Origin: Candidatus Uhrbacteria bacterium
GTDB taxonomy: Bacteria; Patescibacteriota; Patescibacteriia; UBA9934; GWF2-40-263
Reading direction: 5' to 3'
Length of the DNA stretch: 34,488 nucleotides
Assembly (NCBI GenBank): GCA_016188475.1
Contig: JACPHT010000008.1
Coordinates: 1 to 34,488 of the forward strand
The translations under genes were made by a program, and so were the position numbers. Position 1 is the stretch's first letter. Each line of letters opens with the position of its first letter. Below the pieces are notes generated by a model. It did not search any database. It had not been told where the DNA came from and saw nothing but the letters and a program-made list of their open reading frames with translations. This document shows, one piece after another, positions 6,383-15,301 of the stretch.

Positions 6383-6608
6383 AAAACAAAATAATGGTTT
6401 ATGAACCGTGATTACGAGTCGTCGTTATTCCCTGAGCCTGTCGAAGGGCTAACGACGATAAGCTAAAAATTTATTCCTTCGACAAGCTCAGGAAATAATT
6501 TTTTTAAATTGCGTAATTCACAACCCACTACCTCATTATTCTACCCTTCGACTTTATAGATGTCTAAACACACACTGCTCAGGGCTTCGCGCGACAAAGC
6601 CGCGCTTG

Positions 6609-11562: not shown

Positions 11563-12762
11563 TCAGGGAATAATGAACAACGGTTTTGTTGTATCTACTT
11601 CGCTCACATTCATTCTATTTTTTGTTCCATTGTAATAGATCACTTCAACCTTTCCTTTTATCTCTTCCGGCACTGATGCACCGTTCCAAAGAGCAAAAAC
11701 AGTCTTTTTGCCAATCGTAAATTTTACAGCGTGTTCACTTAGACGTTCAACCGTATCAAATCCGTCAATCGTCTTTATTAACAACTCGAAAGTTTGTTCA
11801 GCTTTTTCGCCAGGCCCTCCAGTCGGATCATTTTTCCCAACATCAAAAACTTTTTCCGCGCCATTTGCGAATGCTGAAACATAACCTATGAAAGTTTTTT
11901 GAGCTTTCATATCTTCATCCCAATTCACATCAAGCGAACCAACAAGCGCTTCTGTAACCCAAAAGGATTGCGTATCACGACCAACACCTTTCCAAAAGTC
12001 GTTGTATTCTTTTGTAAAAAACTGATCTGACGCGCTGATGGAATGAATGTTTCCGATATCTCCGCGTGTTCGTTCTGTAAAAAATACTCCTCGCCAATAA
12101 TTTATTGATGACATTTCCATTCCAGACATTCCAGCAAATAAAACTTTCGCGTTCGGACTTGCGGCTTTTATTTCATCAAACGCAAGACGGAAAATTTCCG
12201 CATACGCGCCAGCTCCGGATTGAAAAAAAGTTAAGTCTTTAGTTTGAAGATCTGGTTCGTTTCCGATTTCCCAATGTGTGATTGGATATTTAAGTCCTGG
12301 CATGTCATCAATTCCATCGCCATCATAACGTTCTGCCATTGCACGAACCCAATTTTGAAACGGCTCAACATGACAAATGCTGTACATCTTAATCATCTCG
12401 TCGCCAAACGGATGTTTCACTTTTTTATCTTTTGGATGACAAGCATCTTGATCCCATTGCGCGTATGGCCATATCGTCGCCAAGATCGCTTGATCGCGTT
12501 CTTGCCAATATGAAACTTCGCGATCAGCCTCTGACCAATCGTATGTTTGTCCTTTTTCTTTTTCGATGTTGTCCCACCAAAATGCTCCAGGATGCGGACG
12601 AACCCAACCTCCTGTGATCGGACTTTCTATAACTGGCCCACCAACCAAACGACCAAAATGAGACGCACCGATTGATTGTCGTGGAACTGATTTTGACAAA
12701 CAGCCAACGCCAACGAAGGTCAAAAGAGTCAATAAAGTCAATAGAGTCAATTTAGTTTTCAT
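11563..12762 (-). CDS. Lipoprotein with a glycoside hydrolase (clan GH-A-like) domain
   Basis: Signal peptide with lipobox 'VGVGC'; 'ITHWEIGNEPDLQ' (acid/base NEP motif) and 'SFWVTEALVGSLDVNW' candidate nucleophile region. Confidence 0.65.
   Translation of the reverse strand: MKTKLTLLTLLTLLTFVGVGCLSKSVPRQSIGASHFGRLVGGPVIESPITGGWVRPHPGAFWWDNIEKEKGQTYDWSEADREVSYWQERDQAILATIWPYAQWDQDACHPKDKKVKHPFGDEMIKMYSICHVEPFQNWVRAMAERYDGDGIDDMPGLKYPITHWEIGNEPDLQTKDLTFFQSGAGAYAEIFRLAFDEIKAASPNAKVLFAGMSGMEMSSINYWRGVFFTERTRGDIGNIHSISASDQFFTKEYNDFWKGVGRDTQSFWVTEALVGSLDVNWDEDMKAQKTFIGYVSAFANGAEKVFDVGKNDPTGGPGEKAEQTFELLIKTIDGFDTVERLSEHAVKFTIGKKTVFALWNGASVPEEIKGKVEVIYYNGTKNRMNVSEVDTTKPLFIIP
12719..12754. repeat. 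9-bp x 4 in-frame microsatellite in the lipoprotein signal peptide
   Basis: gtcaaaaga|gtcaataaa|gtcaataga|gtcaattta, encoding LTLLTLLTLLTF. Confidence 0.85.
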
Positions 12763-14135
12763 ATTTCATGAATAGTTTGGCTTTGATTTGTATCCTCTAT
12801 AATAAATCCTCTATTTTTTATTTCCTCTCGCAAACGATCTGATTCTCCCCAATCCTTTTTCACTCGCGCCTCATCGCGTTGCTGTATAAGTTCTAAAACT
12901 TCTTCCGGAATTTCCAATCTTTTTCCAACAAAATCACCCAGACCTAGTCCTAGCACAAAGTCAAATTTTAGAAGCGATTGCGCTCGCGCTGAAGTCGGCA
13001 TTTTTGCGTCTTCAACCATCTCCCACAAAATCGCGAGAGCTTGCGGAGAGTTGAGATCATTGTTGATTGCATTCAAAAATCTTTGTTCGTATTCCGCGCA
13101 ACCAATTTCAGGAGAGTCCCAATCGCGAACGATTTTTCGCAAACGTCGCAAAGCATTTTGCGCTGCCTCAAGAGCGCTCCATGTAAAATTTAACTTCGCT
13201 CTATAATGCGCGCCCAACAAAAAATAACGAAACTCAAGCGGATCAAAACCCTTCGAAACCAAATCATCAATTGTAAAAAGATTTCCAAGCGACTTGCTCA
13301 TCTTTCCACCATCAACTGTTAAAAAATCATTGTGAATCCAAAAACGCGCGTGATAAGCGCCACAACATCCGATTGCTTGAGCAAGTTCGTTTTCATGATG
13401 AACCGGAATGTGATCAATTCCGCCAGTGTGAACATCAAACGGCATACCGAGATATTTAATCGACATCGCGGAACATTCAATGTGCCAACCAGGGAAACCT
13501 TTTCCCCAAGGTGATTCCCATTCCATTTCACGCTGAACACCTGCTGGTGAAAATTTCCACAACGCAAAATCTGTCGCGTTTCGTTTTTCTTTCATCTCAA
13601 CTCGCGCACCAGCTTGTTTTTCTTCACTTTTTTGTCCTGACAAAATTCCGTATTGAGGAAGTTTGGAAGTGTCAAAATAAATTCCATCAGTCGTTTGATA
13701 TGTAAAACCGTTTCGTTCAATATCTTTTATCATTTTAATTTGTTCAGCAATGTGTTCTGTCGCTTTTGGATAATGATGCGCTGGTTTGATGTTTAGACGA
13801 TTCAAATCTCTCAAAAATGCTTTGGTATAAAAATCTGCAATTTCGTACGCTGTTTTTCCTTCACGTTTCATCGCAACAATCATTTTGTCTTCGCCTTCAT
13901 CAGAGTCGCTTGTCAAATGCCCAACGTCTGTGATGTTTATAACGAGTTCAACTTCAAAGTTGTTGTATTCAAAAGTGCGGCGCAGTAAATCTGAACACAA
14001 ATACGCTCGCATATTTCCAATGTGAGGAAACCAGTAAACAGTCGGGCCGCAAGTGTACATTCCAACTTTGCCCTGTTTAAGCGGCTGAAATACCTCAACT
14101 TTTTTGGTGAGAGTGTTGAAAAGTTTAATAGCCAT
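12759..14135 (-). CDS. cysS: Cysteinyl-tRNA synthetase
   Basis: '[22 protein letters not shown]', 'WHIECSAMS', '[19 protein letters not shown]', '[10 protein letters not shown]'. Confidence 0.97.
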
Positions 14136-14136
14136 A

Positions 14137-14274
14137 CCCGGTAGTACAACAATGATATTTACATTTGTTAGTATTTCTTTTGGCTGACATTTGCGCGACT
14201 CCTTATGTAGGGTATCGGACTTACTTCGTAAATGCCACGTAGAACAGGTGACAGATCATTGTTGTCCTACCGGG
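14137..14274. mobile_element. 138-bp MITE-like element with 20-bp terminal inverted repeats
   Basis: CCCGGTAGTACAACAATGAT (14137-14156) and ATCATTGTTGTCCTACCGGG (14255-14274), 19/20 complementary; flanked on both sides by CATA. Confidence 0.6.
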
Positions 14275-14305
14275 CATAGCAAAAAATATTCTAGCATTCG
14301 CGTAC

Positions 14306-14394: not shown

Positions 14395-14556
14395 GGAGCG
14401 GTCGTACCATGTCGTAGGGAGTCGAGGAGGAGTAAAGAAGCCAACTGCTTGGCTTCGTACCTCCGAGACGGGTTGGAAGATGTCTGGCTGAAAGCCAGAC
14501 CGTACAACACCTGCGGCGAGGAGTCCGCTGGCCCGGAGACATTGTACGACCGCTCT
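14395..14556 (+). ncRNA. Structured RNA candidate of unknown class, four-way junction
   Basis: P1 GAGCGGTCGTAC/GTACGACCGCTC (14396-14407/14544-14555) extended by ATGTC/GACAT; P2 GTCGAGGAGG/CCTCCGAGAC with tandem G.A; P3 GAAGCCAA/TTGGCTTC; P4 GTCTGGCT/AGCCAGAC; P5 GCGG/CCGC. No plausible ORF. Confidence 0.6.
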
Positions 14557-14571
14557 ACTATTTTCTAAAAA

Positions 14572-15111
14572 TTAATACGAATCGTAGTTGCGGCCCAACA
14601 TCACCATAGCCAACAAAGGCATCGAAACCCAAACAGCCTTCGCGATATCACTGACAAAAAACGCTTGCGTTGTGCTTGATAAAACGCCGGCCAAATCATT
14701 TGGAAAAAATGAAAGAGTAACACTGATTAGTAAACCGACGTGTAAGAATGAAAAAATCATCACCTGCCATAAAGGACCTTGAGCGGCCGCGTGACCAAGT
14801 GTTCGAAGCAAAGCTGAATGTGATAAGAAAAAGAAAAGAAGAATAAACACACCAAGAAAAACTGAAACTCGTAATGCAAAAGCGTCATTGATGGAAATTC
14901 GCGCGGTAAAAGCATTTATAAACGGTATATAATTCACTATCGCAAGCGCCATGTAAATCGAAACCAAGATCACGATAATTCGATCACGTCCAAGTGAAAT
15001 TCCATAAATCAGCGATGCAATAACAAAAAATAAAAGAATGAAAAGATCCCAACTTGGCTGAAGCCAGTTGATTCCCGTAAACATTTGAACAAACGATTGG
15101 ATTTGAAACAT
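14572..15111 (-). CDS. Hypothetical multi-pass membrane protein
   Basis: Strongly hydrophobic ORF (14572..15135) with about 4-5 TM segments; internal Met at 15111 preferred. Confidence 0.65.
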   Translation of the reverse strand: MFQIQSFVQMFTGINWLQPSWDLFILLFFVIASLIYGISLGRDRIIVILVSIYMALAIVNYIPFINAFTARISINDAFALRVSVFLGVFILLFFFLSHSALLRTLGHAAAQGPLWQVMIFSFLHVGLLISVTLSFFPNDLAGVLSSTTQAFFVSDIAKAVWVSMPLLAMVMLGRNYDSY

Positions 15112-15301
15112 ACCTCCTTGGGAATAGTATAACACGAAGTGAAAAAGTGGTGGAGTGAAGAAATTGATGAGTTAATCAAGAGTTAAGTTATGGAAGTCAA
15201 GTTAGTCGATTAAGAAAAAACGCCTAAATTAAAAACAGAACATGAACCCATGTCTGCTTCAACTTCATTGACTAATCTGACCACATTTACTCTTCCGACG
15301 C

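Follow-up and report, generated by a model that had tools for sequence, protein, structure and literature searches.

REPs are extragenic and are found, in either orientation, between genes that are codirectional or convergent (PMC3733652). We analyzed a 34,488-nucleotide stretch of Candidatus Uhrbacteria DNA (the window) and found at 14395-14556 (+) an element built on a hairpin repeat, called family A for simplicity, which shows this REP-like placement and shares with GTAG/CGTC-tagged REPs and their REPIN/BIME pairs that it is a short extragenic palindrome present in tens of copies and able to form larger composites. Family A differs from REPs in three respects: it has no fixed unpaired GTAG/CGTC end tag, its GNAG being located within the tip with a variable N (G in 29, T in 14, A in 10 and C in 5 cases); its stem is variable and its tip conserved; and several carriers contain no RAYT (REP-associated tyrosine transposase). 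With MITEs it has in common that it is non-coding, has inverted-repeat ends, is dispersed in multiple copies, undergoes nested insertion and is polymorphic between sister genomes (empty sites, one solo/composite site), but it differs from them in having neither a target-site duplication nor a fixed terminal sequence, and no autonomous parent transposon with the same ends was seen among the copies. We consider 14395-14556 to be, with a probability of roughly 0.7, a composite copy within a family of palindromic, REP/MITE-like DNA repeats that are non-autonomous. In favor of this reading are the size and the patchy spread of the repeat family, the covarying stems, the solo/composite and empty sites, the occurrence of the core within two hairpin families, the inverted tips, the position downstream of genes without a preferred orientation, and the G.T excess. 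Counting against it are the missing target-site duplications, the lack of a precise excision boundary, the absence of RAYT or RVT_1 genes from some carriers, the persistence of several copies at orthologous sites, and the strict tip conservation, which could reflect an RNA function.

The element is located in the gap between the start of cysS at 14135 (12759-14135, minus strand) and the end at 14572 of a second minus-strand gene without a Pfam match (14572-15135). Folding of the plus strand as RNA gave a minimum free energy of -85.9 kcal/mol against an average of -55.1 for 200 shuffled sequences (0/200; z -7.35), confirming the architecture described in the initial annotation, namely an outer stem, an ATGTC/GACAT helix and three hairpin domains. 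The minus strand folds comparably (-80.6, z -8.0), so that energy does not choose between the strands. In the predicted fold, an outer stem of 13 pairs (12 Watson-Crick pairs and G14395.U14556) is followed by a C.U mismatch, the 5-bp ATGTC/GACAT helix, an internal loop and a GGG/CCC helix, beyond which the structure opens into three arms, the 8-bp P3, the 8-bp P4 and P5. The tandem sheared G.A pairs proposed for P2 held in part: the G.A and A.G contacts are present on the plus strand, but they belong to a 3x3 GUA/GGA internal loop with a U.G contact between them rather than to a pure tandem. Only chance ORFs of 50-52 aa cross 14395-14556, as anticipated from the sequence, and an Rfam search yielded no match even at E<=10 and no family above the gathering threshold, in agreement with the earlier statement that the class was not recognizable. 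Neither a promoter-like (sigma-70-like) site on the plus strand nor a terminator-like site was found near the element. Its parts are as follows.

14395-14556 (+): composite palindromic repeat consisting of a family A hairpin and a nested core, plus being the tip-sense strand (fold z -7.35; copies in this and two sister genomes)
14395-14413 (+): 5' arm of the outer stem (P1 14395-14407, P2 14409-14413), pairing with 14538-14556; compensatory changes across the family
14538-14556 (+): 3' arm of the outer stem, pairing with 14395-14413; compensatory changes across the family
14414-14419 (+): internal-loop side GTA plus GGG, conserved part of the family A tip (GNAGGG is kept in solo copies)
14420-14511 (+): nested core with the P3 and P4 hairpins, missing from solo copies and also found inside family B hairpins (comparison of solo copies and of the solo/composite site)
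14437-14456 (+): P3 tip GAAGCCAACTGCTTGGCTTC, a hairpin motif that also occurs by itself in this and related genomes
14482-14500 (+): P4 tip GTCTGGCTGAAAGCCAGAC, reverse-complemented in one other copy (alignment of composites)
14512-14537 (+): P5 hairpin together with the 3' portion of the family A tip (TGCGGCGAGGAGTCCGCTGGCCCGGA), matching the tip that is conserved in solo copies
6431-6492 (+): empty family B REP pair with the AAGGG..AACGACGA linker that at other places in the genome has received the core (sequence comparison)

The basic unit of family A is a hairpin of 17-27 bp with a variable stem and the strictly conserved tip GNAGGGAACARCGGCGANNAGTCCGYTGGCCCGGA. A BLAST search with 14395-14556 against its own genome (G000, 893 kb in 10 contigs) returned 46 matches, among them three further near-full copies at 87-90% identity and five copies of the inner part alone (query 26-135), the remainder including numerous short hits on the outer arms. 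This genome contains four composites with the core in a family A tip, 14395-14556 included, and 27 solo copies according to a covariance model; composites of the same type are carried by two sister genomes. In 14395-14556 the ~92 nt of the core follow GGG and split the solo tip, and it is the presence of the core inside the tip which creates the four-way junction. At one orthologous site, a solo hairpin in the sister genome G001 (L059; GTAGTGA-ACA-ACGGCG) corresponds to a composite in G000 (L185). The same core is found within five copies of another REP-like pair, CCTGAGCTTGTCGAAGG...CCTTCGACAGGCTCAGG (family B), at the junction AAGGG..AACGACGA, a motif similar to the family A junction. The family B 17-mer CCTGAGCTTGTCGAAGG occurs 88 times in the 434 kb of sequence covered, about half of the genome, often as inverted pairs (REPIN/BIME-like). 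The comparisons show that an independent core of ~92 nt was inserted into, or lost from, the family A tip at GNAGGG/AACGRCGA.

Hairpins are nested within hairpins in this system. In one copy (L017) the P4 position is taken by a whole family A hairpin. Within the window, family B is also present at 1602-1671, in addition to 6431-6492, and some family B pairs hold the core of 14395-14556. Several family A hairpins (L020, L023, L026, L028, L034) are themselves enclosed by a larger repeat, whose outer arms resemble GATCGTTCGGATCCTCTGTTC / GAACAGAGGATCCGAACGATC; this adds a further nesting level. A long hairpin of the CCAGTTCAATGAAGCC.. type with the P3 tip AAGCCAACTGCTTGGCTT is also present directly 3' of tRNA genes in the own and a related genome (L036, L037, L049), possibly serving as a tRNA terminator.

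The initial annotation had taken the element for a stand-alone structured RNA. A new ncRNA or riboswitch class of ~162 nt would fit the strength and complexity of the fold and the missing Rfam match, but the four-way form is a mere composite of hairpins that occur separately, the locus contains no element in the sister genome G002, though both flanks align, and there is no promoter. Instead, the element belongs to a dispersed repeat that has ~30 relatives in this genome and is randomly oriented to genes, and the solo/composite and empty-site comparisons largely refute the stand-alone reading, which we regard as extremely improbable.

Family A was searched in 43 genomes of the GTDB family with the covariance model. 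Besides G000, the same genus contributed 16 copies in G001 and 27 in G002, another genus of the family 23 in G015 and 10 in G027, and single copies were found in G006, G060 and G019. The remaining 35 genomes lack the repeat, so that its spread is patchy, with 8/43 carriers. The exact tip was also present in public genomes whose titles read Candidatus Uhrbacteria, Candidatus Parcubacteria or simply bacterium. Neither the tip nor P3 had an exact match in viral contigs, leading us to reject a phage origin. Several copies occupy conserved orthologous sites, pointing to slow movement or to a local role. A rival explanation is a chromosomal DNA site, i.e. a mark for the nucleoid, for segregation or for replication, to which a host protein would bind via the extruded hairpin, and the moderate copy number in several carriers (16-27), the persistence at orthologous sites and the asymmetric, conserved tip are compatible with it. 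The absence of the repeat from 35/43 genomes of the same family and an orientation bias relative to GC skew that was not significant (30 vs 25) make this explanation very unlikely. An apparent clustering of orientations by contig, suggestive of a replication-strand bias, likewise failed when set against GC skew.

Covariation was determined on two sets of sequences. In the first set (24 sequences, not fitted to any model), 24/27 stem pairs were changed on both sides, and sliding the partners as a control reduced the paired share from 84% to 32-43%. In the second set (74 distinct model-aligned sequences, an alignment which leans towards structure and includes some reverse-strand hits), two-sided changes were observed in 21/21 stem pairs and in 497 cells as compared to 72-164 with slid partners. 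The compensatory changes by which the annotated structure was to be judged are thus present; among seven composites they affect P1/P2, the GGG/CCC helix and P5, while P3 and P4 show next to no variation. In G050, P3-like hairpins retain the fold with stems of another sequence (GGCGG/CCGCC in place of GGAGG/CCTCC), and these few sequences hint that P3 may covary as well. In the inner 18 stem pairs of copies found by the tip alone, we counted 15 G.T against 3 A.C pairs (p = 0.0075), and 44 against 8 in a wider set derived partly from BLAST or the model, indicating that the tip-sense strand is the folding strand, which at 14395-14556 is the plus strand favored from the outset. The wobble bias does not separate RNA from single-stranded DNA. 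By analogy only, strand-specific recognition of ssDNA hairpins, as with the subterminal hairpins of IS200/IS605, would explain a bias confined to one strand; family A differs from these elements in that no Y1 transposase adjoins the copies examined and several carriers contain no NF047646 match.

The main rival to the repeat reading is a structured RNA module in 3' untranslated regions, acting as a stabilizer of mRNA ends or as a bidirectional terminator with a protein-binding tip. Gene contexts were counted with a crude ORF caller, excluding 26 ambiguous cases, and the 37 unambiguous copies were located between codirectional (29), convergent (7) and divergent (1) genes, with at least one gene upstream of the copy in 36/37 cases. 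This position downstream of genes, together with the strong covariation, the tolerance of G.U on one strand and the strict conservation of the tip, would fit a 3' module, and an RNA function could be an alternative cause of the tip conservation. Between codirectional genes, however, the tip is read in sense in 15 and in antisense in 14 cases, an even split which speaks against a role in the upstream gene's transcript. Tips are also inverted between orthologs, and the surroundings of 14395-14556 have no promoter or terminator signature. Taken together, we consider the 3' module unlikely.

Further comparisons between sister genomes bear on the dynamics of the repeat. Several solo copies of G001 and G002 correspond to empty sites in G000. 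Of nine orthologous sites occupied by a hairpin in both genomes, three have tips of opposite orientation, and in one composite the P4 tip is reverse-complemented. Flank matches were no commoner than in shuffles, i.e. no target-site duplication was detected, and the empty sites, which are diverged, did not reveal a precise excision boundary of family A.

Two candidate mobilizing enzymes were rejected. RAYTs are encoded in G000 (3) and G002 (2), but not in the carriers G001, G015 and G027, and the surroundings of the three G000 RAYT genes contain other palindromes; a REP mobilized by RAYTs was discarded on both counts. Mobilization by a reverse transcriptase was discarded since RVT_1 is missing from the carrier G027 and common in non-carriers.

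In the composite-repeat reading, the unit would act as a folded single strand, most likely as ssDNA during replication, and would be recognized via its tip. Stem complementarity may be kept by selection on the fold, by hairpin template-switching or by both, and template-switching may flip the tips as well; small inversions along with repair of the arms would be expected from such switching during replication. Effects on neighboring mRNAs (a hairpin at the 3' end, stability, termination) would then be a by-product. Going one step further, we tentatively raise the rather doubtful possibility of a class of hairpin-based mobile DNA in CPR genomes in which the conserved tip and not the ends would be the recognition signal, folded single strands would be copied or moved without RAYT or RT, stems would be re-copied and thereby kept complementary, and hairpins would be inserted into the tips of other hairpins. 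Irrespective of this, a strong fold with covariation, the usual evidence for functional RNA, can stem from a palindromic repeat family, and comparative RNA screens in CPR genomes should control for palindromic repeats. For these small genomes, we also document hairpin repeats nested in one another, tips that become inverted and stems that turn over by compensatory changes.

A separate inverted repeat of 146 bp is located at 14133-14278 (-), between cysS and its likely promoter. Its ends read TATG-CCCGGTAGG...CCTACCGGG-TATG (CCGTG-TATG at the end of the copy at the L31 gene), and copies were found in three genomes of the genus (L205-L223). In 20/21 copies with a readable right end, this end coincides exactly with an ORF start codon, and in the remaining one it lies on a tandem copy upstream of ftsA; the orientation of the element to the gene is always the same. 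According to Pfam, the target genes encode IF-3 (infC), L35 (rpmI), IF-2 (infB), GyrB (gyrB), S12 (rpsL), L31 (rpmE), FtsA, SecD, SecF, GrpE, RimK, riboflavin kinase, a class I tRNA synthetase, a protein kinase, transporters and others, cysS being the target of the copy at 14133-14278. In G002, cysS starts with TATG and lacks the element. The two flanking TATG motifs resemble a target duplication of the start codon. Inside the element are an AGGAG-like site, similar to a ribosome-binding site, and, 54 nt upstream of the target ATG, a further ATG, which in several copies is in frame with the gene and would add an 18-residue extension such as MSVKETLTNISIIVVLPG. The small ORF 14190-14125 (-), which contains three Cys codons and overlaps the cysS start, has the look of an attenuator leader; a Cys-codon attenuator leader peptide at 14280-14131 was nevertheless rejected, because the region is really the MITE, whose inverted repeat supplies the tandem TGT codons common to all copies. 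No such start-codon element was found in a non-exhaustive literature search, and this 146-bp MITE-like element is apparently undescribed and probably more novel than the composite at 14395-14556. It could also matter more, as a mobile element which positions itself precisely at the start codons of essential genes. Another contig contains a diverged cousin (L225:2704-2828), which likewise abuts an ORF start.
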